Shown here: piece by piece, positions 11,059 to 55,472 of the stretch
Layout of the letters: every line of letters begins with the position of its first letter
Position numbering within the stretch: position 1 is the stretch's first letter
Made by a program: the position numbers and the translations under genes
NCBI GenBank assembly: GCA_029891345.1
Contig: CM057003.1
Span: 10,482,209 to 10,546,208, forward strand
DNA: 64,000 nt
Direction: 5' to 3'
Source of the DNA: Dryococelus australis
Lineage: Eukaryota > Arthropoda > Insecta > Phasmatodea > Phasmatidae
Notes under the pieces: generated by a model
Database searches by the model: none
Told to the model about the DNA's origin: nothing
The model's input: the letters and a program-made list of their open reading frames with translations, nothing else

Positions 11059-11326
11059 AATTACAAACTGATGGAAGGAAGGTAATGTCCTAATGAAAGT
11101 AATGAAGCTATTGACGATCCGGCGGTCATACATCCATTTCGCACGCAATTACAAACTGATGGAAGGAAGGTAATGTCCTAATGAAAGTAATGAAGCTATT
11201 GACGATCCAGTGGTCAGACATCCATTTCGCACGCAATTACAAACTGATGGAAGGAAGGTAATGTCCTAATGAAAGTAATGAAGCTATTGACGATCCAGCG
11301 GTCAGACATCCATTTCGCACGCAATT
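11059..11326 (+). repeat. 88-bp tandem triplication
   Basis: Three head-to-tail copies of an 88-bp unit begin AATTACAAACTGATGG and end CCATTTCGCACGC. They differ at only a few sites (for example GGCGGTCATA, AGTGGTCAGA and AGCGGTCAGA). The near-identity suggests recent local duplication. Confidence 0.93.
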
Positions 11327-28920: not shown

Positions 28921-29182
28921 GGCGAGTGCAAGCGAATGATAGAGCTAAAGTGGAGGAAAAAAAATGTGCCGTTACCAACCAGGGGGTGGCTATGTCCTAT
29001 ACCGCGCAGTGTTAACAAGTGAAGCCAGTTTATAGCGTGGAGTTAAACGGTTGTTTTCCGTTACAAAAGGTCACATGATCAACAGTAGCCAAAAAAACAT
29101 TGTATCGGCCTATCTTTCACGTGTATTTTGATGAGTATTAAAATCGACATAAATTAATATACAACCTTATTTGACCTAAACG

Positions 29183-29229
<47 letters not shown>

Positions 29230-30649
29230 TAAGCGTGTTTGTCTCAGATAACTAGATACAAATTTCGCCGTTAAATATGTAAATTTATAAATTATTTACA
29301 TATAAATGGAACTGTTATATACGGTGTTTTGGTTGATTTGCTTCCCATTCCCTATATATTTGCCTTGATAATATTCCAGGAAATAATTTTCTGTCGACTA
29401 AAGGAGCTTTTCAAAGTTGTGATAAAACTTCTAACTGTACTAAAATCGAATATAATACGCTATTTAAGTTGTCTGCGAGTGCGTTACAAGTGAAGCAGAC
29501 ATGCGGGAGAGAGACAACTTTTGTTTGCATTGGAATTGAACAGCCTTGCGAGTGCTATACGAACTCACTAGTTCAGAATTTTCTCTAAATTTGTATTAGT
29601 TTTGCGTTTGCAAAATGTAAATTTGGCATGCAAACACGCATTAAAACTATAATCTATGTTTCATTTATTCGGCGACCAACTAAAACTAATATCAATGCAT
29701 GGAAACGGGCACGAACCGGGCCATGCGAATCCAATGTTTAGTATATTCGTATACACCGTAGATACATTCGTGAAGGATATCGCACAATTATTGTGTGTAT
29801 AGGGATATGTTATCTGCGTAAGTTTGTAGATTAACAATTGCAGTGTGTTTAATTTTTGCAAGTTGCGGTTGCGATTACTGACGTGCCGTGAATTTATGGT
29901 ATAGTCTGCAAGTTGCCGACTCGTTAGAGTTACAGGCACTTTTATAAAACTGCAGATAAGTATTTTTCTAAATTCCGATTTGCTATTTCAGTGTAAGAGT
30001 TTATGGAATTAATTTGTTAGTAATGGCAAACCATCTCGAAAACCAATACACGGCTACACCTTATAAAAACTCCACTCTTACAATTTTTTTTTCTCCCAAG
30101 TCAGCAGAGTTGCAGTGACAAACAAAAAATCAGCTCTTTATCAATACAAGAATATAGGCCTACAACCATATCAGTTATCATATTTTTAATATCCACTGAA
30201 TGTAGCCTTCATGGTTTGCAATTTCCATGGTTTCTCAAACTCACTCCATGCAATTTCTGGGGTGACTCAATGAAGACAATTTGACCAATTCCTTCCTTGT
30301 ATTCCCTTCACTGTGGTCTTAGTTTACCATTATCTAATGAATCTGCTGACGACAAAATATTAAGTTAAATAACGTTTACTTGTGTATTTAGATGGTTATG
30401 TATTTAACGGTAGGCTGTAATCATTGCAGTAAATTACATGTTTATAATTTCATCGTTTTCCAAAGGTAGCCAAAATAAAGAAAACTTAGATAAAGCCAAT
30501 CTTTTCCTATAACTACACCATCTGCAAAATAGAAAAACATAGCGTGATTTTCTTTAAACCCCATTTCACCCTTCTTAATGATTTTTAAAATTCTAATTTT
30601 GATGGCAACTAATTGGACATAAACTTATTTTAATATTGATGATGAATCA
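28921..30649. other. A+T-rich intergenic DNA, no gene seen
   Basis: No gene was recognised. A (TA)n run occupies 29185-29227. A 92-codon minus-strand frame at 29661-29939 has no known domain. Confidence 0.5.
29185..29227. repeat. (TA)n microsatellite
   Basis: An uninterrupted TA run of about 43 bp. Confidence 0.95.
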
Positions 30650-32604
30650 TGGATATTTAGACGAAAATGTTAAATTTTTTAAAAGCCTACTTGTAAATGA
30701 AAAATGGGATGATGTTTACAAAACAACCACGAACAAAATTTTCTACAGCCACCACGAATAATATTTCCGAAACAACTACGAACAACCTCTCCAGAACAAA
30801 CATATTTTATACATTAACTGAACCAAGCATTGCCTGGAACAGTTTTATTAATACATTTCTTTGTCATTTTAATCATGCCTTTCCACTCAAATCTGAAAAA
30901 TGTAGCAGTAGCTCGAAAATAAAATGGATTAGTAAAGGTCTGGCAGTCTCAAGACAGAGGTTTAAAACAATGCGTAAAATACTAAGAACCCAGGGGAAAA
31001 ACAAAAAATTATACTGTAAGCAATACAAAAAATTATATAACATATTACTCGGAGTAGCAAAGCAGAAATACAATGGGGAAAAATAGCCTCCTCCTCAAAT
31101 AAAACAAAAAGCAATGTGGAACATTATTAAAAATGAATTGAAACCTAGGCAAGGACATGTTAACCTTTCCTTGAAAGTCGATGGTATTAAATCGAAAATA
31201 GTAAGGAAACATCTAATAGTTTTAATGACTATTTCACAAACATCCCACTAAAATTGTGAAATGAACACAGAGCTACAAATATTAGTCCTGCACACATACC
31301 CCAAAGACCTAACACTTCGAATGCTAACACACTGTTTTTCACACCTATCTATGAAGAAGTCATCATACATGTAATTAAAAATTTCGAAAGTAAAAGTTCC
31401 TGTGGACTAGATGGGTACCCATGACTCTGCTAAAAAGTGTTCTTATTTAATAAAACTGCCTTTGACTTACATTTTCAATGAATGTCTTGCCCAGAGAATT
31501 ATTCCTGATAGACTCAACTATGCAAAAGTAGTACCTATACATAAAAAGTGACAAGGCATTGATGGATAACTACAGGCCTATTGCTCTTCTACGTCCTTAA
31601 AATTTTTTTTTTAGAGAAATTGATAGCAAATAAACTGACTCAATTCTTAATAAAAACAACTAGGTTATTTCATTGCATTAGAACGGCTTTGTAGAGGGCA
31701 GATTCACAGAACAAGCTATTTACAGTTTTACTGAAAAAACATTAACTTCTTTTGATAAAAGACAATTCTCAACAAATATATTTGCACATATTTCAAAAGC
31801 TTTTGATTGTGTTGACCACAATATTTTATTGCAAAACTTGAACAGTGTGGAGTAAGAGGTGTAACTAATAATATGTTTAAATCATTAATTGAAAACAGAA
31901 AACAAATCACCTCCATAAGATATTATGACAAAAATCACATTACATATATTATGTCTAATACCAGAACTACTCGAGTAGGAGTGCCACAGGGATCAATACT
32001 GGGACCAATTTTATTCTTAATATTTATTAACAATTTTACAGAACAAATAACCAACGGCTCAGCTATAATGTTTGCGGATGATACAAACATTTTGGTAACT
32101 AGTTCAAATATCGCTGTTCTTGAAGAAAATATAAAACAAACAGTGACTGAGGTGTCCAGTTGATTATAGTTTGATAAATTAATAACTATTAAATGGTTCC
32201 AGTATAATAAATTAATTCCTATTAAATGTAAACAAATATGTGCTCATTAATTTCATGCAAAGAAATAAACATATAATGCAGGATGAAAGATGCAAAACAA
32301 TAGAAGAGGACGGGTTACAGACAGTAAATAGTAGGCTACTTAATTTCTAGGGCTCATTGTAGACAGTGATTTAACATAGAATGAGACTGTTAATAGTGTC
32401 TGTAAAAATTGAGTTCAATGTGTTTTGCGGTACATACCTTAAAAAAGATTTGGAATAATAATACAATACTTGCATACTATTTCTCAAATATTCAGTCCAC
32501 AATAAATTATGGAATCATATTTAGGGGTAAATCGACAAAATGGAAAAAGGCTTTCAGATTACAGAAGAAAATAGTGAGAATAGTAAGTAATAAGGAAAAA
32601 GAAG
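30650..32604 (+). mobile_element. Decayed non-LTR retrotransposon (LINE) with reverse transcriptase
   Basis: Fragments in changing frames follow the order of a LINE ORF2. They are FKSLLVNEKWDDVY, IAWNSFINTF and KWISKGLAVSRQRFK before the RT; NYRPIALL (RT motif 1); GFVEGRFTEQAI; SKAFDCVDHNILL (motif A, with its Asp); GVPQGSILGPILF (motif B); and MFADDTNIL (motif C). LQKKIVRIVSNK follows, the usual start of the C-terminal region. The style is that of the CR1/Jockey group; the clade is unresolved. Multiple stops and frame changes show it is inactive. No 5' endonuclease domain was recognised. The 3' end is replaced by the 107-bp satellite, which starts inside the coding sequence. Confidence 0.88.
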
Positions 32605-35260
32605 CCATTGTAGGCCGCTATTGACTGACTAAAACCTAGGCTACGATCACCGTAGCATTCCCGTGATGAAATAACAGTGACGTTACCATGGAAGTAATAA
32701 GGAAAAAGAAGCCATTGTAGGCCGCTATTGACTGACTAAAGCCTAGGCTACGATCACCGTAGCATTCCCGTGATGAAATAACAGTGACGTTACCATGGAA
32801 GTAATAAGGAAAAAGAAGCCATTGTAGGCCGCTATTGACTGACTAAAGCCTAGGCTACGATCACCGTAGCATTCCCGTGATGAAATAACAGTGACGTTAC
32901 CATGGAAGTAATAAGGAAAAAGAAGCCATTGTAGGCCGCTATTGACTGACTAAAGCCTTGGCTACGATCACCGTAGCATTCCCGTAACGAAATAACAGTG
33001 ACGTTAACATGGAAGTAATAAGAAAAAGGAAGCAATCGTAGGCCGCTATTGACTGACTAAAGCCTAGGCTACGATCACCGTAGCATTCCCGTAACGAAAT
33101 AACAGTGACGTTACCATGGAAGTAATAAGGAAAAAGAAGCCATTGTAGGCCGCTATTGACTGACTAAAGCCTAGGCTACGATCACCGTAGCATTCCCGTA
33201 ACGAAATAACAGTGACGTTACCATGGAAGTAATAAGGAAAAAGAAGCCATTGTAGGCCGCTATTGACTGACTAAAGCCTAGGCTACGATCACCGTAGCAT
33301 TCCCGTAACGAAATAACAGTGACGTTACCATGGAAGTAATAAGGAAAAAGAAGCCATTGTAGGCCGCTATTGACTGACTAAAGCCTAGGCTGCGATCACC
33401 GCAGCATTCCCGTAACGAAATAACAGTGACGTTACCATGGAAGTAATAAGGAAAAAGAAGCCATTGTAGGCCGCTATTGACTGACTAAAGCCTAGGCTAC
33501 GATCACCGTAGCATTCCCGTGATGAAATAACAGTGACGTTACCATGGAAGTAATAAGGAAAAAGAAGCCATTGTAGGCCGCTATTGACTGACTAAAGCCT
33601 AGGCTACGATCACCGTAGCATTCCCGTGATGAAATAACAGTGACGTTACCATGGAAGTAATAAGGAAAAAGAAGCCATTGTAGGCCGCTATTGACTGACT
33701 AAAGCCTAGGCTACGATCACCGTAGCATTCCCGTTATGAAATAACAGTGACGTTACCATGGAAGTAATAAGAAAAAGGAAGCCATTGTAGGCCGCTATTG
33801 CTGACTAAAGCCTAGGCTACGATCACCGTAGCATTCCCGTGATGAAATAACAGTGACGTTACCATGGAAGTAATAAGGAAAAAGAAGCCATTGTAGGCCG
33901 CTATTGACTGACTAAAGCCTAGGCTACGATCACCGTAGCATTCCCGTGATGAAATAACAGTGACGTTACCATGGAAGTAATAAGGAAAAAGAAGCCATTG
34001 TAGGCCGCTATTGACTGACTAAAGCCTAGGCTACGATCACCGTAGCATTCCCGTGATGAAATAACAGTGACGTTACCATGGAAGTAATAAGGAAAAAGAA
34101 GCCATTGTAGGCCGCTATTGACTGACTAAAGCCTAGGCTACGATCACCGTAGCATTCCCGTGATGAAATAACAGTGACGTTACCATGGAAGTAATAAGGA
34201 AAAAGAAGCCATTGTAGACCGCTATTGACTGACTAAAGCCTAGGCTACGATCACCGTAGCATTCCCGTAACGAATAACAGTGACGTTACCATGGAAGTAA
34301 TAAGGAAAAAGAAGCCATTGTAGGCCGCTATTGACTGACTAAAGCCTAGGCTACGATCACCGTAGCATTCCCGTAACGAAATAACAGTGACGTTACCATG
34401 GAAGTAATAAGGAAAAAGAAGCCATTGTAGGCCGCTATTGACTGACTAAAGCCTAGGCTGCGATCACCGCAGCATTCCCGTAACGAAATAACAGTGACGT
34501 TACCATGGAAGTAATAAGGAAAAAGAAGCCATTGTAGGCCGCTATTGACTGACTAAAGCCTAGGCTACGATCACCGTAGCATTCCCGTAACGAAATAACA
34601 GTGACGTTACCATGGAAGTAATAAGGAAAAAGAAGCCATTGTAGGCCGCTATTGACTGACTAAAGCCTAGGCTACGATCACCGTAGCATTCCCGTTATGA
34701 AATAACAGTGACGTTACCATGGAAGTAATAAGAAAAAGGAAGCCATTGTAGGCCGCTATTGCTGACTAAAGCCTAGGCTACGATCACCGTAGCATTCCCG
34801 TGATGAAATAACAGTGACGTTACCATGGAAGTAATAAGGAAAAAGAAGCCATTGTAGGCCGCTATTGACTGACTAAAGCCTAGGCTACGATCACCGTAGC
34901 ATTCCCGTAACGAAATAACAGTGACGTTACCATGGAAGTAATAAGGAAAAAGAAGCCATTGTAGGCCGCTATTGACTGACTAAAGCCTAGGCTACGATCA
35001 CCGTAGCATTCCCGTGATGAAATAACAGTGACGTTACCATGGAAGTAATAAGGAAAAAGAAGCCATCGTAGGTTGCTATTGCTGACTAAAGCCTAGGCTA
35101 CGATCACCGTAGCATTCCCGTAACGAAATAACAGTGACGTTACCATGGAATTAATAAGGAAAAAGAAGCCATTGTAGACCGCTATTGACTGACTAAAGCC
35201 TAGGCTACGATCACCGTAGCATTCCCGTAACGAAATAACAGTGACGTTACCATGGAAGTA
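32585..35260 (+). repeat. 107-bp satellite array, 25 units
   Basis: The spacing of GAAGTAATAAGG is 107 bp between units, and the array spans 25 units. Units differ at few sites; three types are set by the bases after GCATTCCC (GTGATG, GTAACG or GTTATG). Each unit carries a small hairpin, GCTACG-ATCAC-CGTAGC. The first unit begins within LINE coding DNA. A diverged partial unit may continue just past the end (GGCTACAATCACAGTA near 35273-35288). The minus-strand 61- and 63-codon frames are repeat by-products, because 107 is not a multiple of 3. Confidence 0.97.
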
Positions 35261-35288
35261 TGAAAATAAACTGGCTACAATCACAGTA

Positions 35289-36785
35289 AGAAAACTGTTA
35301 CGCGACCAATGAGAAACGAGTACAAAAAAAAAAAGACAGACTGTACATGTATCGCGATATTTTCAAACAGTGTGTTGGCTAACCTGATATATATTTCTGT
35401 TTCGCGGAAATCGTGTTTCGGGATATTTAAAGTGTGTTGTACATGTTAATAATTGCATTGACTATTTAAATAAATGGAAGTCTTTACTGTACCGCAAAAT
35501 TCATTTAATAACTATGTTCTTGTTATAAGATTGCACTGCAGTGACTCTCGTGGTTGGAAATGTTGTCTCGTCATTGGCCGGCGTAGAACTTGGTGTAAAA
35601 GAATTGAAAATATTCAATCCTTTTAACACCGCTACCACGAGCAGGCCACCATCATACGCCGTTATGTTGTGTTGTAGATGGTGCCATATACAAGTGTGGA
35701 TTAAATTTTTTATTGTTAATTCTTACGGTGATTGTGGCCGGAGCTTAAGTACTTGGTACTAAATTGCACTTTTGGAGAAAGATGTAACACAATTTTTGTA
35801 AATGTATGGAATAAAATTATCCATAAATGTTTCCTGTCCCTTTCCCCTTTTTTTCTTCTGGAAAATTTCTAAAATTCTTGATAGCCCAGTGCAGACAATT
35901 CAGTAAAAAGTTTAATTTCTGTGTTTTAGCTATGTACCACGGGCAACTTAATCCTGTCCAACATTGTAGATCCAAGAAACAAAATTGTATCCTACAATAA
36001 GGGAAAAAATAAGTATATAACTGTACCATAACAAAGAACTAATGTAATGTAAAGAGAGTGAATAACTAAAACGGGTTTTGAATTTATTTACCAGAAACCA
36101 TTTCCTATATTGACATTAAATATGTATAAAGGAGATGAAGTCATATTGGAAACAAACCTCTCGAGTCATTGTCAGTGTTAGGAATTTAAATATAAATGCC
36201 AGCAAATAATTATTTATTCGTGGCTCAGGAACATGTGAACTTTGCCTTCCAGAAATTCAGTTAGGCTGCTGGTCGCCGTTTTGTTGCACTCATTACTGAT
36301 ACGCAACCTGCAATACATTACACGACAACGGTAGCACGCTTGTTACACTTTATTTAATAATTTTTTCAAGAAAAATAGTTTACCACAAATCCTGATATAT
36401 GAGCACTATATCTAAAACACATGCTTATTGTCGCACATGATCAAATACTGGTCCGCAGTGCACACACACACACGCTCGGTAGTTTTATGAGGAAATTATT
36501 TTATTGCACAGCTAACACAAGCCAATAATAAACTAGTGAAACTTACCACGTGAATTGTAGCATATATTTATTTATTCATCAGCTTCTTTGTTCAACACGA
36601 ACTGCTTCGTATGTAACCTTTCTCTCAACGTCATTCAAAAGAAAACACAATGTTTTGGGATACTGTCAAGGTGGCAGCTGGAGTCCATAGTAAAACCTCT
36701 TATCTCCAGCGGCTTCATCTACGTCATAACATGCCATCTTCTGTATACTCCTAACTCCAGGTTACCAACAAACTGGTTTCCTCAT
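35289..36785. other. Unassigned DNA, no gene supported
   Basis: No gene was recognised. Frames of 66-73 codons at 35541, 35817 and 36588 have no known domain. If the two transposase pieces belong to one Transib copy, this DNA lies inside it. Confidence 0.45.
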
Positions 36786-54611: not shown

Positions 54612-55472
54612 AAAAATGTGAGCAACAATCAGCCTAGTAAAAAGAAAAATATCTATAAAAATGAGAGCAACAATCAGCCTAGTCAAAAGAAAAATATCTA
54701 TAAAAATGTGAGCAACAACCAGCCTAGTCGAAAGAAAAATATCTATAAAAATGTGAGCAACAACCAGCCTAGTCGAAAGAAAAATATCTATAAAAATGTG
54801 AGCAACAACCAGCCTAGTCAAAAGAAAAATATCTATAAAAATGTGAGCAACAATCAGCCTAGTCAAAAGAAAAATATCTATAAAAATGTGAGCAACAACC
54901 AGCCTAGTCAAAAGAAAAATATCTATAAAAATGTGAGCAACAACCAGCCTAGTCAAAAGAAAAATATCTATAAAAATGTGAGTAACAACCAGCCTAGTCA
55001 AAAGAAAAATATCTATAAAAATGTGAGCAACAACCAGCCTAGTCAAAAGAAAAATATCTATAAAAATGTGAGCAACAACCAGCCTAGTTGAAAGAAAAAT
55101 ATCTATAAAAATGTGAGCAATAACCAGCCTAGTCGAAAGAAAAATATCTATAAAAATGTGAGCAATAACCAGCCTAGTCAAAAGAAAAATATCTATAAAA
55201 ATGTGAGCAACAACCAGCCTAGTCGAAAGAAAAATATCTATAAAAATGTGAGCAACAACCAGCCTAGCCGAAAGAAAAATATCTATAAAAATGTGAGCAA
55301 CAACCAGCCTAGTCAAAGGAAAAATATCTATAAAAATGTGAGCAACAACCAGCCTAGTCGAAAGAAAAATATCTATAAAAATGTGAGCAACAACCAGCCT
55401 AGCCGAAAGAAAAATATCTATAAAAATGTGAGCAACAACCAGCCTAGTCAAAAGAAAAATATCTATAAAAAT
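54612..55472. repeat. 45-bp minisatellite, about 19 units
   Basis: The unit contains GTGAGCAACAACCAGCCTAG and AAAGAAAAATATCTATAAAA at exact 45-bp spacing. As 45 is a multiple of 3 and the unit has stop-free frames, it is open for long distances on both strands: 157 and 128 codons on the plus strand, 299 on the minus. Variation is mostly at TCGA (also TCAA, TTGA and CCGA) and at CAAC/CAAT. There is no signal, no flanking exon and no recognised domain, so I treat it as noncoding. Confidence 0.97.

Follow-up and report, generated by a model that had tools for sequence, protein, structure and literature searches.

Tandem repeats derived from transposable elements (TEs) are well documented, and the accounts in PMC9659126 and PMC12628747 trace them to sources that include LINE ORF2 (chicken HinfI/CR1 and Phodopus PROsat) and the central parts of DNA transposons, with microhomology-mediated joining already proposed as a route to their formation. 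In Lathyrus sativus, short arrays carried by LTR retrotransposons are reported in PMC7004042 to be the source of 9 of 11 major satellites.

The array described here lies in the window, the whole 64,000-nucleotide stretch of Dryococelus australis DNA that was analyzed (C11:10482209-10546208). It resembles the TE-derived satellites in having head-to-tail units made from sub-segments of dispersed elements, but in comparison with those covered in PMC9659126 and PMC12628747, its unit spans a deletion scar between an apparent passenger LINE and its carrier, the parent, the scar, and the array can each still be read, and there is a single 2.7-kb array. Local expansion of short arrays within dispersed elements is also shared with Lathyrus sativus, as described in PMC7004042, although the arrays there lie in genome-wide LTR retrotransposons, whereas here tandem copies are found by exact-pattern search at two places only and with differing endpoints. 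The array is a new and unusually legible case of the known TE-derived tandem repeats and not a new kind, and we put the probability that it was born in place, within one copy of a dispersed transposon, at about 93%.

RESULTS

Organization of the 107-bp array

The array is composed of 25 head-to-tail units of 106 to 107 bp each, with its start placed at the first copy of a shared motif, and totals 2.67 kb at a single locus. Each unit joins 38 bp of LINE (32585-32622 in the first unit) to 69 bp of transposon, as follows.

32585..35255, + strand: 107-bp tandem array of 25 units (repeat finding and unit alignment)
32623..32691, + strand: 69 bp of unit 1 that come from the transposon (a dispersed segment; 29 places in the genome, chosen for their match to it, were aligned)

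The motif, AGTAATAAGGAAAAAGAAGC, lies at 32586-32605 and then recurs once per unit in a scan of the window; at no more than 3 mismatches this 20-mer gives 25 matches, against 0.02 expected in shuffles. Elsewhere in the window there is no exact 14-bp word of the unit and one exact 13-bp word.

The units differ from each other by 2.8% on average, spread over 17 variable columns, and the repeat finder reports an additional period of 427 bp. No single lag gives the array a periodicity (lags 9 to 12 are barely above the others), and the variants that mark units 8, 11, and 12 reappear in units 18, 20, and 21 in the same order and with the spacing one unit shorter, a pattern that fits growth through the copying of runs of units. 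Tandem repeats are generally hard to assemble, and the array might on that account be an assembly artefact, but the variation among units and the orderly continuation of the element on both flanks of the array make this extremely improbable.

A palindrome, GCTACG..CGTAGC, is changed on both arms in units 8 (33334-33440) and 18 (34402-34508), A to G on one and T to C on the other, with pairing kept; the paired changes in the two units are probably one common event. A hairpin as the driver of repetition was rejected, with the unit fold giving a z of -0.22 and 87 of 200 shuffles folding equally well or better. No Rfam family reaches its gathering score anywhere in the window. The array has no sign of function and most likely has none.

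Relatives of the unit and their shared layout

The genome searched comprises 3.415 Gb in 646 contigs. When 32570-32800 was taken as the query of a similarity search, 40 of the 1415 first-look candidates were scored and 52 matches were listed; among these listed matches, 11 span the whole unit and all are within the array, three on C10 come from a different array at 78% identity, and the remainder span about 74 to 85 bp. This part of the unit, about 80 bp long, belongs to a dispersed repeat, and where the array ends on the right the window runs on into that repeat. Altogether 29 copies were compared, made up of 19 places with 1-kb flanks, a 4.5-kb stretch of C10, and nine further places. Of these 29, 19 were taken with 10 kb of sequence: a first ten loci, comprising nine of the 1-kb places and the C10 place, and then the nine further ones. 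The relatives were picked as the best matches to the 80-bp segment, which makes them a selected set and not a random sample.

All of the first ten 10-kb loci carry the LINE side and the right side on the same strand and in the same order, with match limits on the LINE side from 28974 (earliest) to 32584 (latest), and the right side matching from 35181 to 36774 at the latest; L029 matches from 35542, beyond an array of its own. The same layout of LINE and 3′ part is present in seven of the second nine loci. Over the whole set, 16 of the 19 relatives have the LINE (to window position 32485 or beyond) and the 3′ part on the same strand and in the same order with extra sequence between them, the exceptions being L030, which conforms partly (its LINE side ends at 31019), L042, and L046, which has the right part and no LINE match. 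L042 is rearranged, with the element parts in opposite orientation and the LINE side on the other strand. The possibility that the LINE's neighbor is foreign DNA was discarded, as the relatives have both parts in one element.

Near 36007, about 0.7 to 0.9 kb of extra sequence is present in 6 of the 19 relatives (L036, L037, L038, L040, L043, and L045) and about 0.26 kb in L046; the window is without it.

The carrier element

The ends that the relatives have in common delimit the element in the window.

28972..28979, + strand: left 8-bp target-site duplication (TSD), TTACCAAC (8/8 identical to 36762-36769)
28980..36761, + strand: dispersed element, probably of DNA-transposon type, with a LINE fragment as putative passenger and the array inside (ends common to relatives)
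35261..36761, + strand: element sequence to the right of the array, as far as the 3′ end of the element (comparison with relatives)
36762..36769, + strand: right 8-bp TSD, TTACCAAC (match to the left duplication)

The relatives' 5′ end is CAGGGGGTGGCTATG and their 3′ end ...CTAACTCCATG, and a scan of the window and the 19 loci, 20 sequences in all, places both ends inside 9 of them. Eight of these nine two-ended copies, the window included, have an 8-bp TSD at 7/8 or better at the better of two offsets, with the exact end points fixed only after candidate ends had been viewed; the exception is L031, with only 5/8. As a control, flanks were paired across different loci, and 6 of the 72 pairs agree at 6/8 or better. 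Because the two-ended copies have common ends, and all except L031 have the duplication, the LINE looks like a passenger, and on the alignments 28980-36761 and loci L029-L047 seem to represent a transposon in which a LINE fragment travels.

The element is probably a DNA transposon with an 8-bp TSD, which may be of hAT or P type. Many hAT ends begin CAGGG, as the 5′ end of this element does, and the TSD length is likewise shared with the hAT and P transposons. It differs from these in that its 3′ end, ...CTAACTCCATG, mirrors the 5′ end weakly and in that no transposase domain was found by Pfam among seven stop-free pieces of two copies, which may be non-autonomous; read by eye, the candidate terminal inverted repeats are CAGGGGG and, as reverse complement, CATGGAG, with five of seven positions agreeing.

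An alternative reading makes the LINE itself the mobile element and the 3′ part its long untranslated region, with the array lying in the LINE tail. The joint presence of LINE and 3′ part in most relatives would be accounted for in this way, a reverse-transcriptase domain is present, and three relatives (L038, L040, and L042) have matches that begin within the fetched DNA past the common 5′ end, at window positions 29256, 29006, and 29006, respectively. But the nine two-ended copies have their 5′ end in common and all but one have the 8-bp TSD, the 3′ part of L046 is accompanied by no LINE match, and no A-rich tail is present at the 3′ ends shown; the hallmarks of a LINE-type unit (ragged 5′ ends, an A-rich 3′ end, and variable TSDs) are not displayed by the element as a whole. 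We regard this arrangement as quite improbable and treat the LINE as the probable passenger of a DNA transposon.

In its 3′ part the window's element differs from the majority of 19 copies at 5.8% of sites (86/1495), the copies' own range being 4.3% to 9.5%. With the units of the array differing by only 2.8%, the array seems to postdate the element's insertion, although homogenization could give an equal picture.

The LINE side of the unit

The LINE is recognizable by a reverse-transcriptase domain, found by Pfam in the window and in L034, and its sequence runs up to the break as listed here.

31960..32163, + strand: RVT_1 reverse-transcriptase stretch of the putative passenger LINE (Pfam RVT_1, E 1.2e-09)
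32559..32622, + strand: final LINE stretch ahead of the deletion scar, LQKKIVRIVSNKEKEA... (alignment with relatives)

Translation of the window from 32559 gives LQKKIVRIVSNKEKEAIVGRY followed by a stop. The array starts at 32585, and its first unit keeps the register of the LINE frame, in agreement with the preliminary description. The LINE share of the unit had been put there at about 20 bp; the shared bases are real and occur in 25 copies, but they extend over about 38 bp (32585-32622). That the 20 bp are normal in this LINE family is borne out by the relatives, 11 of 19 having the 20-mer at 18/20 or better and three (L038, L040, and L043) having it exactly. Nine of the 19 10-kb loci match the full 38-bp part at no fewer than 34 positions, among them L040 and L043 (38/38), L034 (37/38), and L031, L033, and L038 (36/38), and in the alignment over the break the relatives continue past the 38 bp into more LINE sequence without interruption. 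Both L034 and the window have the reading SNKEKEAIVGRY, which is therefore older than the array. L029, the carrier of the C10 array, lacks some of the 38 LINE bases and at the same place is in another frame, RSHCRPLFINNK.

Deletion scar and duplication junction

Two short microhomologies mark the joints of the unit.

32617..32622, + strand: GCTATT, 6-bp microhomology of the internal deletion scar (in 25/25 units)
32585..32589, + strand: left-hand AAGTA of the 5-bp microhomology at the tandem duplication (sequence and alignment)
35256..35260, + strand: right-hand AAGTA of the same microhomology, where the element resumes (alignment)

At the deletion, both parents can be read unbroken in the relatives: 14 of the 19 match the LINE across the deletion point at 20/23 or better, and 17 of the 19 match the transposon 3′ part across its own side at 19/22 or better. 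The two break sites are separated in most relatives by about 1.3 to 1.5 kb that is missing from the window copy; by probe positions the spacing is about 1464 bp in L034, 1437 bp in L044, 1490 bp in L040, 1393 bp in L043, 1324 bp in L031, 1353 bp in L047, and 1151 bp in L035, and by match edges about 4.0 kb in L039 and 1.7 kb in L045. On the 3′ side, GCTATT is present in L036, L037, and L038, GCCATT in L033, and GCTACT in most others, such that the 6-bp match holds only if the window copy carried the T variant. The duplication junction joins ...CCATGG to ...ATAAGG via AAGTA, which is found in both parents. Among about 200,000 random breakpoint pairs in L034, chance microhomology reaches at least 5 bp in 0.82% and at least 6 bp in 0.28%. 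The best scores of the joined sequences among the 19 relatives are no more than 14/17 for the deletion and 15/17 for the duplication.

Both junctions appear to be private to the array. The deletion junction, GGCCGCTATTGACTGAC, has 20 exact matches in 3.4 Gb, all inside the array, with none for the reversed control, and the duplication junction, CCATGGAAGTAATAAGGAA, likewise has 20, all inside the array. At up to 2 mismatches the duplication junction has 132 matches against 63 for its reversed control; of 100 such matches listed, 23 are in the array and 77 elsewhere, the latter comprising two at one mismatch (C6 and C17) and 75 at two, scattered and not in tandem; the 32 matches beyond this list all have two mismatches. 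Short similar words in dispersed repeats would suffice for this excess over the control outside the array. The proposed check for the full unit in other arrays found none among the exact junction matches in 3.4 Gb, an exact-pattern search being one that would overlook diverged arrays. All 25 units carry G at unit positions 61 and 84, where each of 28 family copies has another base (29 were fetched and L029 was omitted owing to its own array), and from these private bases it follows that all of the units descend from this one copy.

These data bear on whether the 107-bp satellite pre-existed elsewhere and then inserted or recombined into the element. Satellite repeats can disperse with mobile elements, as described in PMC12628747, but exact matches of both junctions occur only in the array, none of the 52 listed similarity matches outside the array spans the whole unit, and both edges of the array run in register into the two parent sequences, LINE at the left and the continuation of the transposon at the right. 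An imported satellite is very improbable and already largely refuted.

Origin in place most likely proceeded in three steps. In the first, which comparison with the relatives shows, the window copy lost about 1.3 to 1.5 kb between the putative passenger LINE and its own 3′ part and was rejoined at GCTATT. In the second, a 107-bp stretch spanning the scar would have been duplicated head to tail between the AAGTA sites in the LINE and the 3′ part; the junctions themselves are there to be read, and we infer that microhomology-mediated repair or template switching made them. In the third, as the unit variants suggest, unequal exchange or slippage may have enlarged the dimer to 25 units, a growth in which some runs of units were copied jointly. 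Since no copy with the deletion and without the array was found among the relatives, the order of the first two steps rests on logic, namely that the duplicated stretch contains the scar, which must be earlier than the duplication or have formed in one event with it. The preliminary description had derived the array from the junction between a broken LINE and its neighbor; amplification in place and across the LINE break stands, but the neighbor is another part of the same transposon, brought up by an internal deletion.

A second array on C10

L029, on C10, has 4.1 copies of a 93-bp repeat made from the same transposon segment with different endpoints (L009 1847-2227, equivalent to L029 7347-7727), its repeats joining at TGGCTAC. 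This array is independent of the 107-bp array in the window. An exact-pattern search for the segment followed by its own start after 10 to 40 bp gave 22 matches, 3 at the C10 locus and 19 in the window array, and tandem growth of the segment is thus seen at two places only, in a search that would miss diverged cases.

At the right edge of the C10 array, 263 bp of family sequence (window 35279-35541) that is kept in L044 is absent. Adjacency of a second array to a deletion is what might be seen if deletion and amplification were one event, in which a small circle or a template-switching fork copied the scar and was rejoined by homology. The coincidence is weak, as the same part of the element has lost sequence in array-free copies too (L035 is without 35330-35576 and L022 without 35401-35508), and we consider a single event unlikely, with deletion followed by duplication as the preferred course. 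The starts of both arrays also fall within one 70-bp stretch, their microhomologies differ, and each array lies beside a deletion, which raises the idea that this short segment of the 3′ part is a breakage hot spot where deletion and tandem amplification are mechanically linked; with nearby deletions also in array-free copies, such a hot spot is doubtful.

Other tandem repeats in the window

A 45-bp repeat in 19 copies occupies 54612-55472, and its unit length leaves a minus-strand frame of 301 residues open; the frame has no Pfam match at E 0.01 and is probably not a gene. An 88-bp repeat in three copies, with 97% matches, is located at 11059-11326.

DISCUSSION

The suggestion that the window holds the birthplace of a satellite family is not sustained: there is one array, with no sign of spread and no exact junction outside it. 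A satellite in the strict sense would have long arrays or several loci, and at 2.67 kb in one place the array is by size a minisatellite-like locus.

Many satellites are too homogenized to reveal their beginnings. At this locus a base-by-base comparison is possible among the unbroken parent (in the relatives), the deletion scar, the two microhomologies, and the finished array, which provides a worked example of the passage from a broken transposon to a tandem array.
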